Shown here piece by piece: positions 1,447 through 7,755 of a DNA stretch of 64,000 bases. Every line of letters begins with the position of its first letter. The first letter of the stretch is position 1. The position numbers and the translations under genes are program-made. The notes under the pieces were generated by a model, which searched no databases, was not told where the DNA came from, and saw only the letters and a list, made by a program, of their open reading frames with translations. Source of the stretch: Adhaeribacter pallidiroseus (GTDB lineage: Bacteria > Bacteroidota > Bacteroidia > Cytophagales > Hymenobacteraceae); assembly GCF_003340495.1 (NCBI RefSeq), contig NZ_QASA01000001.1:1-64000 (forward strand), written 5' to 3'.

Positions 1447-1875
1447 ATGCTTTCAAAAAAAGCGAAATACGCTCTAAAAGCCCTCTTATACCTCACCAAA
1501 AACGCCGATAAAGGCCTCATTCTTATTTCGGATATTTCCGAGCGGGAACGTATTCCCCGTAAATTCCTGGAAGCTATTCTGGTAGATTTAAAAACCCAGG
1601 GCTTGCTGCAAAGTACCCGCGGTAAAAATGGCGGCTACGCTTTAGTAAAAGATCCTTCGCAAATTTCCGTGGGCAACGTTATCCGCATGATCGACGGCCC
1701 GCTGGCTCCTATTCCCTGCGTGAGTCATTTGTATTACCGCAAATGCGACGAGTGCGTTGACGAAATAACCTGCGAAATCCGGATTGTGATGAAAAAGGTG
1801 CGTGATTCTACTGCCAACATTCTGGATACTACCTATCTAACGGACCTAGAAAAAATGAATACCCTGGTAGCTTAA
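1447..1875 (+). CDS. Rrf2 family transcriptional regulator (CymR/IscR-like)
   Basis: A 142-residue Rrf2 protein. The winged helix-turn-helix covers about residues 1-75 (ALKALLYLTKN, FLEAILVDLK, STRGKNGGY). The C-terminal part has cysteines at 91, 100, 103 and 109. That cluster could bind a metal or Fe-S cluster, or be a redox switch, but the usual IscR three-Cys spacing is not clear. Rrf2 proteins repress sulfur or Fe-S genes (CymR, IscR). Beside a TonB receptor, a peroxiredoxin and a TauE/SafE exporter, a role in sulfur control is a reasonable inference. An inverted repeat 38 bases after the stop is a candidate operator for the next gene. Confidence 0.9.
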   Translation: MLSKKAKYALKALLYLTKNADKGLILISDISERERIPRKFLEAILVDLKTQGLLQSTRGKNGGYALVKDPSQISVGNVIRMIDGPLAPIPCVSHLYYRKCDECVDEITCEIRIVMKKVRDSTANILDTTYLTDLEKMNTLVA

Positions 1876-1912: not shown

Positions 1913-1935
1913 TTGTCTACAAATTCTATAGACAA
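1913..1935. promoter_or_regulatory. Inverted repeat, candidate Rrf2 operator
   Basis: The arms TTGTCTA (1913-1919) and TAGACAA (1929-1935) are perfect complements with a 9-base AT-rich spacer. The site lies between the Rrf2 gene and the TonB receptor gene. A dyad of about 23 bp suits a dimeric winged-helix regulator, and the nearest regulator is the Rrf2 protein. The link is an inference. I did not find a second clear copy upstream of the other cluster genes. Confidence 0.45.
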
Positions 1936-2027
1936 TGCCTTTAACTACTTGCTGCCATCTATCTTGCCTAACGGAAACAAAACTGTTTTATACCTGTTTA
2001 GGTGCTTTGTTTTACAGATCTGTTTAG
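1935..2027 (+). CDS. Possible Cys-containing leader ORF upstream of TonB receptor
   Basis: A 30-codon ORF (MPLTTCCHLSC at its start) with Cys at positions 6, 7, 11 and 20. It ends 78 bases before the TonB receptor start. Its ATG overlaps the right arm of the inverted repeat at 1913-1935. The tandem TGC TGC codons recall the two short ORFs at 5049 and 5807 in the same locus. It may be a chance ORF. It is reported because of the shared Cys-Cys feature. Confidence 0.25.
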   Translation: MPLTTCCHLSCLTETKLFYTCLGALFYRSV

Positions 2028-2105: not shown

Positions 2106-4970
2106 ATGAAAAAAACTTTTTTACTCCTTTACGTTCTGCTTATAGCTGTGCTAACCACCTATGGTCAGGAGAATAATATTATTGAAATTACGGGCCAAGT
2201 AACCGACCAGGAAGCCAAAGATCCTTTGCCCGGGGTAAGTGTCTACGTAAAAGGCACCGTTACCGGCACTGTAACCAATAATGCTGGCGATTTTTCTTTG
2301 CGTACCCGGTTACGGTTTCCATTTACTTTAATTTTTTCTTCGGTGGGCTTTCAGCAGCAAGAGTTTGAAGTAAAAGGAGTCGGCTCTAAATTGAATGTAG
2401 CTATGGTTACCCAAACCGTACTGGGTAAAGAAGTAGTTATTACGGCTTCGCGGGTAGAAGAAAGTATTTTAAAGTCACCGGTAGCTATTGAAAAATTAGA
2501 TATCCGGGCGATAAAAGATACTCCGGCCCCCAGTTTTTACGATGCTCTGGAAAACGTAAAAGGCGTGCAGATGACCACTTCCAGCCTTACCTTTAAAGTG
2601 CCTAATACCCGTGGTTTTAATATCCCGAATAACTTCCGGTTTATGCAATTGGTAGACGGCGTAGATATGCAAGCGGCCACTTTGGGCGTACCGTTGGGTA
2701 ATGCTATTGGCCCAACGGAATTGGATATTGCCAGCGTAGAAATTACGCCGGGGGCAGCATCGGCTTTGTACGGCATGAACGCGATTAATGGCATGGCCAA
2801 CTTAATTACCAAAAGCCCTTTCTTGCACCAGGGTTTAAGTGTTTACCAGAAAACCGGGGTAAACCACGTAGACGGCATCGACCACGACCCGAGCGTATTA
2901 ACCGAAACAGCTATCCGGTACGCCAAAGCTTTTAACAACAAATGGGCCTTTAAAATTAACGGGAGCTACATGCGGGGTACCGACTGGCGATCTAACACCG
3001 CTACCGATCAGAACCCCAATAACTTAAATACGGCTAATCCTAGTTTTCCGGAACTGGCAGGTGCCAACAACCCGGCTTACGATGCCTGGAATAAATACGG
3101 CGACGAAAACAACAATGCGGTTACTTTAAGCGGCGTGCAGTATCAGGGTAAAAACCAAACCTTTTTGGTGCGGCGTACCGGTTATTGGGAACGCGATATT
3201 GTGAGCCCAATCGTAGATAATTTAAAATTTGATGCCGCATTGCACTACCGCTTAAACGAAAACGCCGAGCTTTCTTATGGTTACCGCATTGGTAAAATGG
3301 ACGGGGTTTTTCAGCGCGGAAATAAAATTCAGCTGGATAACGTGCGGGTACAAAACCACCGGCTAGAGTTAAAAGGCACTAATTATTTTATCCGTGGTTA
3401 CGCCTCCATCGAAAATACCGGCGATTCTTATAATGTAAAACCGATGGTGGACAACCTGGATATCACCGGTGGTGGTACCAATTCAGTGTGGGGTGGAAAA
3501 TTTAAAACTGCCTTGCAAAACGAACTAAATAGCGGCGTTGACTTAGCTACTGCCATGCAGAACGCCCGCCAGTCGGCTGATCAAGGTCGGCCGGAACCAG
3601 GTACGCCGGCTTTCGAAAATTTAAAAAATACCATTCGTAGTATCAATAACTGGGACCATGGAGCTGTAATTGCGGGTGCACCGGCTACCGGTGGCGCTTG
3701 GTTAAGGCAAATGAGCCGCTTGTATCACGCCGATGCGCAGTACGACTTTGGTGATAAAATTAAATTTGTAAATGTATTGGTTGGTTTAGATGCCCGTTTG
3801 TACGAAATTATTCCGGATGGGAACAACTTCGTAGACTTTTCGCGGCCTATCGAAGAAAGAACATTGCCGGGCGGTAACAACGTGTATTACAAAAAAGTAG
3901 GCGGTTTTGGCCAGGTAACGAAAACGTTTTTCGACAACAAATTAAAATTATTCGGTTCGTTGCGTTTGGATTACAATCCGGAGTTTGATCCGAAATTAAA
4001 CCCGCGGGTTGCCGCTGTGTATACGCTGTCGGATCAACATAATTTCCGGGCTTCGTTCCAGAATGGCTTCCGGTTCCCGTCTTTATTTGAGGCCTTGTCT
4101 TACGTAAATAACGGCAATGTGCGGCGCGTAGGTGGTTTATCGTATATTAACGAGGGCCTGGGTTATTTAGATAATTCGTATACTTTAAATTCGGTAAATA
4201 CTTTTAATGCCGCCGTTAATAAAGACGTAACGGCCGGCTTAACCGCGAACGATGCCGCTTTAAAAAACCGGGCTTTGCTGGAAGCAACTAACTTATCTGC
4301 TACCCGGCCCGAGCGCATCAATTCATTTGAAGTTGGTTATAAAAGCGTGTTGCTGGATAACAAATTAGTAGTAGATATTGATGCGTATACCAACGAGTAC
4401 AGTGGATTTTTAGGCCAGGTAGAAGTAGCCGTACCTGCTTCCGGCAGAGTAGGAACCGATGCGGGTGTAACCGATATGTTAGCCGCTAACCGGAGTAAAC
4501 AAACCCGCTACCGGGTGTATACCAACGCCAAAAATACGTACAATAATTACGGCTCTTCCTTAGGAATTACGTATAACTTTTACCAGAAATTTACACTGGC
4601 TGGTAACGTAAACTATAATAATATTAAAACTAACGCCGAAAGGGATGTGTTTGTAACGGGCTTTAACACGCCAAAGTTTATTACCAATTTATCTGTTGGT
4701 AACCGCGAAGTTTTTAAAAATGTAGGCTTTAACGTGGTCTGGAAATGGCAGGATTCTTTCTTGTGGGAAAGCCCATTAGCCAACGGTACCGTACCGGCTT
4801 ATCACACTTTTGATGCGCAGGTAACGTACCGGGTGCCTAAAGTAAACACCACTATTAAAGCGGGTGGAGCTAACATCTTTAACCAGCGCTACATTCAGTA
4901 CGCCGCTGGCCCAACCATTGGTGGTTTGTATTATGTAGCCATAACTATCGACGGATTGTTAAATAAATAA
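2106..4970 (+). CDS. TonB-dependent receptor with carboxypeptidase-like N-terminal domain
   Basis: A 954-residue outer-membrane receptor. The signal peptide is about residues 1-20 (cleavage near TYGQ). A CarboxypepD_reg-like beta-sandwich follows at about 27-112 (ITGQVTDQEAKDPLPGVSVY), then the plug domain (about 125-235, SALYGMNAINGMANL) and a beta-barrel ending in an aromatic-rich C-terminus. Such receptors import ligands too large for porins using TonB energy. There is no SusD partner, so a small ligand is more likely than a glycan. In other Bacteroidota, receptors of this type occur beside Rrf2 and sulfur-assimilation genes. The exact substrate cannot be read from sequence. Confidence 0.92.
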   Translation: MKKTFLLLYVLLIAVLTTYGQENNIIEITGQVTDQEAKDPLPGVSVYVKGTVTGTVTNNAGDFSLRTRLRFPFTLIFSSVGFQQQEFEVKGVGSKLNVAMVTQTVLGKEVVITASRVEESILKSPVAIEKLDIRAIKDTPAPSFYDALENVKGVQMTTSSLTFKVPNTRGFNIPNNFRFMQLVDGVDMQAATLGVPLGNAIGPTELDIASVEITPGAASALYGMNAINGMANLITKSPFLHQGLSVYQKTGVNHVDGIDHDPSVLTETAIRYAKAFNNKWAFKINGSYMRGTDWRSNTATDQNPNNLNTANPSFPELAGANNPAYDAWNKYGDENNNAVTLSGVQYQGKNQTFLVRRTGYWERDIVSPIVDNLKFDAALHYRLNENAELSYGYRIGKMDGVFQRGNKIQLDNVRVQNHRLELKGTNYFIRGYASIENTGDSYNVKPMVDNLDITGGGTNSVWGGKFKTALQNELNSGVDLATAMQNARQSADQGRPEPGTPAFENLKNTIRSINNWDHGAVIAGAPATGGAWLRQMSRLYHADAQYDFGDKIKFVNVLVGLDARLYEIIPDGNNFVDFSRPIEERTLPGGNNVYYKKVGGFGQVTKTFFDNKLKLFGSLRLDYNPEFDPKLNPRVAAVYTLSDQHNFRASFQNGFRFPSLFEALSYVNNGNVRRVGGLSYINEGLGYLDNSYTLNSVNTFNAAVNKDVTAGLTANDAALKNRALLEATNLSATRPERINSFEVGYKSVLLDNKLVVDIDAYTNEYSGFLGQVEVAVPASGRVGTDAGVTDMLAANRSKQTRYRVYTNAKNTYNNYGSSLGITYNFYQKFTLAGNVNYNNIKTNAERDVFVTGFNTPKFITNLSVGNREVFKNVGFNVVWKWQDSFLWESPLANGTVPAYHTFDAQVTYRVPKVNTTIKAGGANIFNQRYIQYAAGPTIGGLYYVAITIDGLLNK

Positions 4971-5048
4971 GCCGATTGCTCCGTTTAGTATTTGATTGAA
5001 CAAAATCAGAGATTATTGGTTTTATAACCCAAGATGATAAAGAGCCCT

Positions 5049-5099
5049 ATGCAAGTTTTTAAAATCGAAAGCTGTTGTTACATGTGTTGTTGTAGCTAG
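5049..5099 (+). CDS. Polycysteine leader peptide (candidate attenuator)
   Basis: A 16-codon ORF, MQVFKIESCCYMCCCS, with five Cys codons (all TGT) among its last eight residues. It ends in TAG at 5097-5099. An internal ATG at 5082 would give MCCCS. It lies 76 bases before the next gene start and is followed at once by a strong hairpin. Polycysteine short ORFs act as cysteine-responsive attenuators in mycobacteria. The arrangement here, in a likely sulfur locus, is what such a device would look like. Translation is not shown by sequence alone. Confidence 0.5.
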   Translation: MQVFKIESCCYMCCCS

Positions 5100-5134
5100 T
5101 GGCCGGACCGGAGTAGATGAACGGTGCTGGCTGT
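5099..5134 (+). promoter_or_regulatory. Hairpin starting at the stop of the polycysteine ORF
   Basis: The left arm at 5099-5110 (GTGGCCGGACCG) pairs with 5122-5134 (CGGTGCTGGCTGT), leaving one bulged G, several G-U pairs and an 11-base loop. The stem begins on the last base of the leader stop codon, so a ribosome stalled on the Cys codons just upstream would cover or approach its 5' side. There is no immediate U-run, so translational control or mRNA stability is as likely as a terminator. Confidence 0.45.
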
Positions 5135-5175
5135 AATGAGTTAAAACTATTTTTCTACTTTAAAAACTTTGCCGC

Positions 5176-5715
5176 ATGAAAGCCATTACCTCTTTATATT
5201 CCAATGCCCTTGTTTCCGAAAGCAATTTCCGGAGTTCTTCTGATAAATTACGTACTTATCCGGCGGCGGCCGCTAATGTTATTTCGGTTCTGATGACTAC
5301 GCCCGCTAAGCCTAAAATTACGGTACTTAAAAACAGTCATTTAGTAGAACTGCAAAAGCTAACGAAATCGTTGCGCGCGCAGGTGCGCAATTCGGTAGCG
5401 CTAATTAAGTTTCTGCACGCCAAAAAAGTAGATTATACCGGAATCGAAACGGAACCAGCAAGTAAGCAAAACGCATTTGGTGAAAGCTTAACGTTCCGGT
5501 TTTCAACCGATCCGGAAGCTTTTTATTTGTTTGCCGATACCTTGCTCCGGAAAAGTTATTTTTTACATCACCACGCCGAAGTAGATCCGGACAACCAATT
5601 GCTGAAAGTACGCGTGGCCGAAAGCCGTTTGCCCGAACTGGAGCAGGAACTGAGTATTGTGTTCGAAAATATAAAACCAATAAATTACCTTGAGACTTAT
5701 TTGCTACGGAAATAA
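5176..5715 (+). CDS. Uncharacterised protein in the sulfur-like locus
   Basis: A 179-residue soluble protein that I do not recognise. It has no signal peptide, no membrane segment and no cysteine. The first 45 residues are Ser/Ala-rich and probably disordered. The part from about residue 50 is helical (LVELQKLTKSLRAQVRNSVALIKFL), then a mixed alpha/beta stretch follows (SLTFRFSTDPEAFYLFADTL). The start is the ATG at 5176. Codon use matches its neighbours. Position after the TonB receptor and behind the polycysteine leader suggests regulation by cysteine supply. Confidence 0.75.
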   Translation: MKAITSLYSNALVSESNFRSSSDKLRTYPAAAANVISVLMTTPAKPKITVLKNSHLVELQKLTKSLRAQVRNSVALIKFLHAKKVDYTGIETEPASKQNAFGESLTFRFSTDPEAFYLFADTLLRKSYFLHHHAEVDPDNQLLKVRVAESRLPELEQELSIVFENIKPINYLETYLLRK

Positions 5716-5806: not shown

Positions 5807-5875
5807 ATGTGCTGCGTTTTAAAAATTGGGGTGTTGTTAAAAATTATATTTTATTTAGCGATTTTCAGAAAGTAG
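5807..5875 (+). CDS. Short ORF beginning Met-Cys-Cys upstream of peroxiredoxin
   Basis: A 22-codon ORF starting MCCVLKIG and ending in TAG, 75 bases before the peroxiredoxin start. The bases around its start, TTACATGTGCTGCG, closely match TTACATGTGTTGTT inside the polycysteine ORF at 5079-5092. Two copies of the same start-plus-Cys context in adjacent leaders of one locus argue against chance. The remainder of the ORF is hydrophobic and may be incidental. Confidence 0.35.
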   Translation: MCCVLKIGVLLKIIFYLAIFRK

Positions 5876-5950: not shown

Positions 5951-6586
5951 ATGGCTTTACGATTAGGGGATTTAGCTCCCGATTTTACAGCAGAAACGTC
6001 GCAAGGCGTTATCCATTTTCATGAGTGGCTAGGCGATAGTTGGGCCGTTTTCTTTTCGCATCCGCGCGATTATACCCCGGTTTGTACCACTGAACTGGGA
6101 GCCGTAGCGCGCATTAAAGACGAATTTGATAAGCGCAATACCAAAGTAATTGCCGTTAGTGTAGACCCCGTCGACTCGCACGCCGGTTGGATCAAAGATA
6201 TTAACGAAACCCAGGATACCACGGTAAATTTCCCACTTATCGCCGACCCAACCAAAGAAATTGCCAACCTGTACGATATGATTCACCCGAACGCCAGCGA
6301 CACCGCTACCGTGCGAACAGTTTTTGTGATTGGGCCAGATAAAAAGATTAAATTAACTCTAACGTATCCGGCTTCTACCGGTCGCAATTTCGCCGAGATT
6401 TTACGGGTTATAGATTCGTTGCAGCTAACGGCCAATTACAGCGTTTCCACGCCGGCTAACTGGGAAAACGGTCAGGATGTTATTATTGTGCCCGCCATTG
6501 CAACCGAGGATATTCCGGCCAAATTCCCGAAAGGTCATACCATTATTAAACCTTATCTGCGAACTACGCCGCAGCCAAATTTATAA
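5951..6586 (+). CDS. 1-Cys peroxiredoxin (Prx6 family)
   Basis: A 211-residue thiol peroxidase that reduces peroxides in the cytoplasm. The active-site segment SHPRDYTPVCTTE places the peroxidatic cysteine at residue 45, with His37 nearby as in Prx6 enzymes. The length, the C-terminal extension and the lack of an obvious resolving cysteine fit the 1-Cys Prx6 group rather than AhpC (about 187 residues). No signal peptide is present. A perfect terminator hairpin follows 15 bases after the stop. It sits between the unknown gene at 5176 and the TauE/SafE exporter. Confidence 0.93.
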   Translation: MALRLGDLAPDFTAETSQGVIHFHEWLGDSWAVFFSHPRDYTPVCTTELGAVARIKDEFDKRNTKVIAVSVDPVDSHAGWIKDINETQDTTVNFPLIADPTKEIANLYDMIHPNASDTATVRTVFVIGPDKKIKLTLTYPASTGRNFAEILRVIDSLQLTANYSVSTPANWENGQDVIIVPAIATEDIPAKFPKGHTIIKPYLRTTPQPNL

Positions 6587-6780: not shown

Positions 6781-7755
6781 ATGCTTTTACCTACTAATCC
6801 ATCCGGTAATAATAAAACGGAAGTTAAAACTGGAGTAACAACTGTATTACCAACCCCTATGAGTGAAACGGAAAAACCAGCAAAGCAAGGTCGTAAATTA
6901 CTACGCTATGCGGGATGGGCTTTATTTCTGGCAGTTGGTTTATTTCTTTTGAGTCAAGTACCGGTTCGCCATTCCGCTACTATTTACGATTTACTGGCCC
7001 AAAATATTACTTCCGAATTTTTTCTGTATATGCTAGGGGGCTTTATCGCCCAGATGGTAGATGGAGCATTGGGTATGGCTTACGGACTTACGTCTACTAC
7101 TTTTCTGCTTTCGGTGGGTATTTCGCCGGCGGCCGCTAGTGCCAGCGTACACGCTTCCGAAGTTTTTACCAGCGGAGCTTCCGGGCTGATGCATTTAAAA
7201 TTAAAAAATGTAAACCGCAAGTTGTTTACCTCCTTACTAATTCCGGGAGTAATTGGGGCAGGTTTAGGCGCGTATATTTTATCGGAACTCGAAAGTTATA
7301 ACCACATTATGAAGCCGTTAGTGGCCGGTTATACCTTAGTTTTAGGGGTTTTAATCATTATTAAAGCCTTTAAACCCAACCGTAAAAAGTTAAAAGAGAA
7401 ATTAATTCCGCCTTTAGCGGTATTTGGCGGATTTATGGACTCGGTGGGCGGCGGTGGCTGGGGACCGATTGTGTCTTCCACGTTAATTGCAGGTGGTCAT
7501 CCGCCGCGTTTTACCATTGGCTCCGTTAACTTAGCCGAGTTTTTTATTGCCTTGGCCAGCTCTCTCACCTTTTTTACCATGATCGGTATTCATCATTGGC
7601 AAATTATTGCGGGTTTAATTTTAGGCGGCGTTATTGCGGCACCTATTGCGGCTAATTTGTCGAAAAACTTGCCCGTAAAAGGGTTGATGATTTTGGTGGG
7701 AGTGCTGGTTATTCTGGTAAGTATCCGGATTTTATTTCTGGCTGTAGGAGTTTGA
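6781..7755 (+). CDS. TauE/SafE family sulfite/organosulfonate exporter
   Basis: A 324-residue inner-membrane protein with eight or so hydrophobic segments. The family motifs are visible: GGFIAQMVDGALGMAYGLTS with SPAAASASVHASE near residues 85-125, and GGFMDSVGGGGWGPIVSS with GSVNLAEFF near 220-250. Members export sulfite or sulfonates or import related anions. The ATG at 6781 gives a 40-residue charged N-terminal tail. A second in-frame ATG at 6859 would give a shorter tail and is an alternative. The 13-mer motif sits 26 bases upstream of 6781. The neighbourhood supports a sulfur role. Confidence 0.88.
   Translation: MLLPTNPSGNNKTEVKTGVTTVLPTPMSETEKPAKQGRKLLRYAGWALFLAVGLFLLSQVPVRHSATIYDLLAQNITSEFFLYMLGGFIAQMVDGALGMAYGLTSTTFLLSVGISPAAASASVHASEVFTSGASGLMHLKLKNVNRKLFTSLLIPGVIGAGLGAYILSELESYNHIMKPLVAGYTLVLGVLIIIKAFKPNRKKLKEKLIPPLAVFGGFMDSVGGGGWGPIVSSTLIAGGHPPRFTIGSVNLAEFFIALASSLTFFTMIGIHHWQIIAGLILGGVIAAPIAANLSKNLPVKGLMILVGVLVILVSIRILFLAVGV

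Follow-up and report, generated by a model that had tools for sequence, protein, structure and literature searches.

Between the genes for a TonB-dependent receptor and a protein of unrecognized function lies a very short open reading frame (ORF), uORF2, that is unusually rich in cysteine (Cys) codons and is directly followed by a hairpin. The locus raises the question of whether such an ORF could report Cys supply to the genes behind it. An earlier note on this DNA proposed exactly this, a Cys-responsive attenuator set among genes for an Rrf2 regulator, a TonB receptor, a product of no recognized function, a peroxiredoxin, and a TauE/SafE exporter. These neighbors are as described, and they occupy the following positions in the window (the whole 64-kb stretch of DNA that was analyzed, which begins with dnaA):

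1447 to 1875, plus strand: Rrf2-family regulator, for which the best NCBIfam equivalog is CymR (79 of 195 bits, far below the cut-off)
1912 to 1936, strand not assigned: candidate Rrf2 operator dyad TTTGTCTACAAATTCTATAGACAAT (TTTGTCTA-N7-TATAGACAAT), ahead of the TonB receptor gene
1935 to 2027, plus strand: uORF1, MPLTTCCHLSCLTETKLFYTCLGALFYRSV and stop, a weak candidate for a leader ORF of the TonB receptor gene, in which Cys is not C-terminal
2106 to 4970, plus strand: TonB-dependent receptor, the upstream gene of a probable operon
5049 to 5099, plus strand: uORF2, MQVFKIESCCYMCCCS and stop, the candidate Cys-codon leader ORF, with a further in-frame ATG at 5034
5176 to 5715, plus strand: 179-aa gene of unrecognized function (the 5176 gene), probably the controlled gene
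5951 to 6586, plus strand: peroxiredoxin (prx; AhpC/TSA with a 1-Cys C-terminal domain)
6781 to 7755, plus strand: TauE/SafE permease (tauE)

The sequence at 5049–5099 bears out the claim of a 16-codon ORF (ATG CAA GTT TTT AAA ATC GAA AGC TGT TGT TAC ATG TGT TGT TGT AGC TAG) with TGT at five of its last eight sense codons. Translation may in fact begin at the ATG at 5034, which would add five codons and yield a 21-codon alternative, MIKSPMQVFKIESCCYMCCCS. Among the 556 ATG-initiated ORFs of 8–60 codons on both strands of the window, uORF2 is alone in carrying at least three Cys in its last eight codons. When positions 4968–5175 were dinucleotide-shuffled 20,000 times, at least three Cys were reached in 202 shuffles and five Cys in none. 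uORF2 has the form that characterizes polycysteine leaders, a short ORF with Cys codons clustered near the stop. No conserved Bacteroidota-like −33/−7 pair was seen by eye as a promoter of uORF2. Likewise, no known riboswitch exceeds the Rfam threshold between 1850 and 7000, where the three sub-threshold matches (E 0.6, 1.1, and 4) all lie on the minus strand and none falls within 5049–5176.

A short Cys-containing ORF that ends 1–3 nt before a GC-rich hairpin, with hairpin arms picked by hand, is present at this site in all eight genomes of the genus, the window genome included. The ORF between the TonB receptor and the 5176 gene is Cys-rich (4–6 Cys) in five of them, with the C-terminal tails SCCYMCCCS, SCYMHCCCS, LCCMRGCCS (two genomes), and TCCCCMQVCNC. 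In the remaining three it has two Cys (MCTDDMCSPQG, MCTKDRCSPQG, and MCTDDMCRPQG, each complete to the stop). The putative control codons are thus kept in five of eight genomes and the hairpin in all eight; the absence of either from relatives, which the earlier note had named as fatal to its proposal, was not what was found. A search of 98 genomes for the pattern CC-x-M-CCC with one mismatch allowed gave matches in 11 genomes, window included. The matches in G003 and G006 are leaders of a nitrite/sulfite-reductase operon discussed below; the frames of the remaining ones were read and taken for chance or in-gene matches. The pattern CCCCR-stop gave 64 matches in 48 of 148 genomes, vs. 11 for the reversed pattern. 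Fourteen of these precede metY and four precede a TonB receptor, while the rest share no gene downstream and seem to have arisen by chance or in coding sequence.

The RNA that follows uORF2 can be divided into two helices, S1 and S2:

5101 to 5110, plus strand: 5′ arm of S1, beginning 1 nt past the stop codon
5111 to 5117, plus strand: 5′ strand of S2 (GAGTAGA), which is the loop of S1, pairs with 5154–5160, and shows group-specific co-change
5122 to 5132, plus strand: 3′ arm of S1, with one bulged G
5154 to 5160, plus strand: 3′ strand of S2 (TCTACTT), 15 nt upstream of the ATG at 5176, which closes the alternative hairpin 5111–5160

In the window, S1 consists of ten pairs and one bulged G. 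Together with 5099–5100 and 5133–5134 (read by eye, G.U included) it amounts to 12 pairs, in agreement with the earlier description of a 12-bp hairpin that starts on the last base of the stop codon. S1 alone is more stable than all 500 of its own shuffles (z −3.7), and S1 of the other seven genomes is equaled by 0 to 36 of 500 shuffles, while the whole 141-nt stretch has ordinary stability (z −0.88, with 34 of 200 shuffles as good). In all eight genomes, the S1 loop can pair with a downstream segment whose end lies 11–15 nt ahead of the next ATG. The two strands fall into two groups, with AAGTAGAA-like loops facing TTCTACTT-like downstream strands in five genomes and CTTATAAA-like loops facing TTTATAAG-like strands in three. 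Best-helix scores within a group are 14.5–22.5 (five genomes) and 20.5–27.5 (three genomes), compared with 8.5–15.5 across groups, so that the ranges overlap slightly (14.5 vs. 15.5). The two sides of S2 therefore appear to have changed together between clades, a co-change seen across eight genomes in two groups, which are few for covariation. The 7-bp S2 of the window itself is the weakest of the eight (p 0.12 alone, vs. 0 to 0.015 in the other seven).

When the 5′ arm of S1 is taken to be covered by a ribosome standing on the stop codon, the RNA that remains is predicted to fold into the longer S2-closed hairpin in all eight genomes. S1 and this alternative hairpin share bases and have similar predicted energies, which are −15.0 and −14.6 kcal/mol, respectively, in the window (the alternative with the 5′ arm covered) and −11.8/−13.9, −12.2/−11.1, −14.2/−11.3, −12.8/−7.7, −12.4/−11.3, −12.6/−13.5, and −9.4/−10.9 kcal/mol in the other seven genomes. 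Compared with shuffles, the alternative hairpin is moderate, being matched in stability by 15 of 500 in the window and by 21, 56, 64, 121, 23, 4, and 12 of 500 in the others. The downstream RNA is thus predicted to form mutually exclusive structures, as in a classical attenuator. A T-run directly after S1 is absent by eye in seven of the eight genomes. For this reason, translational control by competing hairpins is favored and transcription attenuation is not claimed for the 5176 locus. Nested-fold accessibility of the start region was also calculated for four ribosome positions and gave no consistent outcome, a likely reason being that this model does not allow S1 and S2 at once.

Taken together, these features make it moderately probable that uORF2 encodes the Cys leader peptide of a ribosome-mediated translational attenuator, located between two genes of an operon and switched on by starvation. 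When Cys is ample, the ribosome would reach the uORF2 stop codon and cover the 5′ arm of S1. The alternative hairpin would then form across the sequence just ahead of the 5176 start codon, lowering translation of the 5176 gene. When charged tRNACys is scarce, the ribosome would wait at the UGU codons, allowing S1 to form and preventing the alternative hairpin. With S1 formed, the 5176 gene would be translated, and probably prx and tauE as well. We infer from the layout that uORF2 is translated, that the response depends on tRNA charging, and that the switch has this direction. These Bacteroidota are mostly without Shine-Dalgarno control. It is uncertain how well the predicted pairing, which ends 11–15 nt upstream of the ATG, would block initiation. 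Stalling at the first Cys codon would leave S1 untouched in all eight genomes, and in the three genomes with two-Cys ORFs the edges of stalled ribosomes would end at least 6–7 nt short of S1.

The earlier note presented a lone leader with its hairpin. Both are present, but they belong to a multi-operon set, and the competing pairing between the S1 loop and the start region of the 5176 gene is more telling than the hairpin. In the same genome there looks to be a set of Cys leaders, located before metY, before a nitrite/sulfite-reductase-family gene (twice), and, as a weaker candidate, at the TonB receptor. The Cys attenuator accordingly stands as a candidate, upheld by genus-wide conservation of ORF and hairpin and by similar leaders before other sulfur-metabolism genes in the same and other genera.

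A structural parallel is offered by the nitrite/sulfite-reductase-family operon. Its 710-aa product matches the Pfam NIR_SIR domains over the cut-off, while NCBIfam equivalogs all remain below theirs, with NirA first, followed by sulfite reductases. The enzyme presumably reduces sulfite, since TauE and Cys/Met PLP genes are found nearby. In the window genome the gene is preceded by MNTNAFSSANNRVPAACCGFCCMAPAGKA and MLNVMASCCCMCCFAVQKDRPV, each ending at a stop codon. At L262 (G000:C1:5358000-5367000, minus strand), two successive Cys leaders are each followed by a terminator-like hairpin, an arrangement that is possibly a double attenuator. There are two leaders in seven of the eight genus genomes and one in G005. 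In all seven genomes with two leaders, the first is associated with a terminator and a 9–12 bp antiterminator at the leader end. The complement to the terminator 5′ arm is located over the last codons of the leader (four genomes) or begins from or just past the last base of the stop codon (three genomes), as is classical for an antiterminator. The single leader of G005 has an 11-bp antiterminator. When the upstream sequence was shuffled as a control, 0, 1, 0, 0, 2, 10, 3, and 0 of 300 trials gave an equally good antiterminator. For the second leader, the complement is 4–6 bp in four genomes and 10–11 bp in two (G001 and G007), and a second terminator was not found in G002. Across 29 of 30 loci from several genera (fragment L377 was left out), at least three Cys in any eight codons, rather than in the last eight only, occur in 17 loci, at least four in 14, and at least five in 12, compared with 5, 0, and 0 on the reverse strand. 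The simplest reading of these predicted structures is that the operon is controlled by classical transcription attenuation.

The layout of these leaders bears on the chief alternative at the 5176 locus, in which the same Cys leader acts with the opposite sign. Here, S1 and S2 would form a pseudoknot (or S1 a terminator) that blocks the 5176 gene until ribosomes completing the ORF at ample Cys open S1, making 5176, prx, and tauE genes of Cys or sulfur excess. In its favor, the stop codon abuts S1 in all eight genomes, so that a terminating ribosome would cover the 5′ arm of S1. TauE and peroxiredoxin suit a sulfur-excess role, and S1 is terminator-like in G005, where it is followed by TTTTT and could be a terminator, reversing the sign. 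However, the other seven genomes lack the T-run directly after S1. S2 length points both ways. In five of eight genomes it is 7–10 bp, which is borderline for an H-type pseudoknot, whereas in the other three it reaches 13–14 bp, taking the whole loop in L064 and 13 nt of the loop in L062 and L065, with 0–2 nt preceding. The geometry of a pseudoknot loop limits its length, and pairing of 13–14 bp with 0–2 spare nt is too long for it, so mutually exclusive hairpins fit better than a pseudoknot. In addition, the nitrite/sulfite-reductase leaders show the classical starvation-on layout. The opposite sign is judged fairly unlikely, and the starvation-on translational attenuator is retained as the preferred reading.

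A Cys leader also precedes metY in all eight genus genomes, ending ~100–120 nt before the gene. Six of these leaders were recognized by filter and two by eye, namely those of the window genome (tail SGCCTRYCCR) and G006 (tail FGCCSSWYYC). MetY of the window genome scores over the TIGR01326 cut-off (O-acetylhomoserine aminocarboxypropyltransferase). A SAM riboswitch (RF00162) above the Rfam gathering score lies ahead of the metY Cys leader in all eight genomes, and metY is possibly under two-input control by SAM and Cys. This order, SAM riboswitch and then Cys-rich leader ORF before metY, can be seen at L242:1144-1476 and at the other metY loci of the genus, and in G005 a further Cys/Met PLP-family gene likewise has a SAM riboswitch ahead of it (L266:8015-8115). 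SAM or SAM-I/IV riboswitches were found at 17 of 20 metY loci scanned. In a phylum-wide sample, at least three Cys occur in the last eight leader codons at 9 of 45 metY loci, vs. 0 of 45 on the reverse strand. The 45 loci, which include the window genome, were retained from 70 tried, 25 having no recognized start, and all nine matches are among the best-scoring relatives.

Leaders of this type extend to some related TonB receptors, for which the best 80 of 449 confirmed stretches were taken and 79 used (L146 has too little upstream sequence). The loci span Rufibacter, Pontibacter, Adhaeribacter, Pedobacter, Chitinophaga, Niastella, Hymenobacter, and others, and this named set overlaps with the genus set (L083, L085, and L086 correspond to G001, G002, and G007). 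Upstream of the receptor, 19 of 79 loci have an ORF with at least three Cys in the last eight codons and 60 do not. In the controls this level is reached by none of the 79 reverse strands, by four of the 79 regions just downstream of the gene, and by 0.32% of 1580 shuffles. At least four Cys are found at 10 of 79 loci and at none in each of the three controls. The usual leader ends are CCCCR, CCCC, and CCC, directly before the stop. Within the genus, the TonB-receptor leader is clear in four of eight genomes and, by eye, weaker in the window genome and in G004, which has MFENLNCCCSCSQSPGIISMR and a stop where the window has uORF1. G006 has only MCLLL before the stop, and no Cys leader was seen by eye at the TonB receptor of G003.

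These parallel leaders also weigh against an improbable alternative, in which the Cys-rich nascent peptide itself senses copper, zinc, oxidants, or persulfide and stalls or releases the ribosome, with tRNA charging not being the signal. The CC and CCC clusters could serve as metal ligands, the locus encodes a peroxiredoxin, and a precedent exists in copper-sensing exported nascent proteins (PMC9973294). However, the residues around the Cys vary (CCYMCCC, CYMHCCC, CCMRGCC, and CCCCMQVCNC), no signal peptide is evident by eye, and similar tails precede metY and the nitrite/sulfite-reductase-family gene. That uORF2 is incidental and S1 an intercistronic stabilizer or weak terminator is highly improbable, for although the whole stretch is not unusually stable and the ORF holds only two Cys in three genomes of the genus, five Cys never arose in the 20,000 shuffles, the ORF is Cys-rich in five of eight genomes, and parallel leaders exist at other loci.

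Several of the TonB loci contain a further element related to Cys translation. A tRNACys(GCA) gene occurs in 15 of the best 80 (L078, L080-L086, L090, L095, L096, L107, L137, L143, and L147) and also in L061, while any other tRNA occurs in only two. In the genus, a tRNACys-like gene follows the 5176 gene in four genomes; there is none in the window. Ordinary tRNACys is also present in all 13 genomes checked via non-genus loci. U73 is the usual Cys identity base. Ordinary tRNACys has G1:C72 with U73 in 20 of 20 copies examined, a set made up of the best matches to the copy of the window genome, which favors uniform ends. The TonB-linked copies number 17, including one at L079 with anticodon GAA, and 13 are placeable in register. 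None of the 13 combines G1:C72 with U73; their ends are G1:C72/G73 (seven), A1:G72/U73 (four), C1:A72/A73 (one), and G1:C72/A73 (one). In the four genus copies the acceptor strands pair at only 2–3 of 7 positions in register, and the ends are not assignable. The L079 gene (L079:5596-5667) has the GAA (Phe) anticodon on the same acceptor stem, at a place where related Rufibacter carry the tRNACys-like gene. The linked genes may represent a separate tRNACys class or decaying copies. A speculative extension, to which little probability is attached, is a Bacteroidota Cys regulon that counts Cys codons in leaders, with the SAM riboswitch added at metY, double leaders at the nitrite/sulfite-reductase operon, and, in several genera, a TonB-linked non-canonical tRNACys(GCA)-like sensor tRNA. 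Such a tRNA would be inefficiently charged, or little used in bulk translation, and would thereby make the leaders Cys-sensitive.

A search for the 5176 gene recovered it from all eight genus genomes and from none of 90 others. Profile searches with its protein gave no family match, including none to PF01053, and it is not a recognized sulfur gene. The homolog in G005 is longer (a 405-residue open frame), shares the C-terminal part, and has a sub-threshold match to Cys_Met_Meta_PP (PF01053), at 26 bits vs. a cut-off of 27. Profile comparison with PLP enzymes gives a probability of 99.8% if both sides include the G005 protein and 9% (E 0.0034) if it is left out. Descent of the 5176 protein from a Cys/Met enzyme is therefore a lead rather than a result, because the match is convincing only when the G005 protein is on both sides. 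Polycysteine leaders are expected ahead of sulfur genes, and the sibling leaders are so placed, whereas the 5176 gene is tied only indirectly to Cys/Met PLP enzymes.

CymR, the best though sub-threshold equivalog of the Rrf2-family protein, is a regulator of Cys metabolism. The dyad at 1912–1936 could be the operator of this neighboring regulator. By eye, a similar dyad precedes the TonB receptor in other genus genomes (its second half differs in G005) and also precedes prx in some loci of the family. A separate ORF before prx, MCCVLKIGVLLKIIFYLAIFRK and stop (window 5807-5875), overlaps an inverted repeat, CAGAAAGTA/TACTTTCTG (by eye). It was considered as a further Cys leader and rejected, being absent from the seven other genus genomes.

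If the preferred reading is correct, the ribosome itself would gauge Cys supply for several sulfur-related operons. Cys attenuation would then exist in a second phylum, where a single genome would employ two or more modes of output, among them transcription termination and start-site masking. It would also offer a codon-level handle on Cys sensing in these Bacteroidota and make the TonB receptor a candidate sulfur-nutrient importer.

Cys leader ORFs are known from Actinobacteria, as far as the accessible parts of PMC9094748 and PMC13236596 describe them. Those predicted in Mycobacterium, Propionibacterium, and Bifidobacterium have runs of Cys codons near the stop and lie upstream of cys operons or cbs (PMC1262725, accessible part). 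For Bacteroidota, transcriptome studies have noted short ORFs or leader peptides in 5′ regions that suggest attenuation, with Cys leaders not mentioned in the accessible parts (PMC9723704, PMC7366714), nor is a Cys leader in this phylum found in those of PMC2965389 and PMC4833913. No Cys leader in Bacteroidota is thus described in the literature searched, to the extent that it was accessible and supplementary tables of PMC9723704 and PMC7366714 aside. The leaders of PMC1262725 resemble those described here in their Cys-codon runs near the stop codon. They differ in that no conserved terminator-like hairpins are reported in its accessible part, whereas here the predictions are of terminators paired with antiterminators at the nitrite/sulfite-reductase operon and of competing hairpins at the 5176 locus. 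Another regulatory RNA of these genomes, the SAM riboswitch RF00162, belongs to a linked pathway; at metY it lies ahead of the Cys leader, and none is found at the uORF2 locus. In mycobacteria, leaderless polycysteine short ORFs reportedly bring about Cys-responsive attenuation of the genes behind them. These attenuators, which Canestrari et al. 2020 are said to describe, are likewise short ORFs that contain Cys codons and precede genes. They belong to another phylum and are leaderless by title, while uORF2 sits between two genes. Also unlike the mycobacterial ORFs as described, the uORF2 hairpin abuts the stop codon and a second pairing reaches toward the next start. Classical trp/his-type attenuators combine a leader peptide containing control codons with mutually exclusive RNA hairpins. 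The 5176 locus departs from this type in that S1 of the window is without a terminator and control would fall on translation, and on that of a downstream gene rather than the first, whereas leader 1 of the nitrite/sulfite-reductase operon fits it closely.
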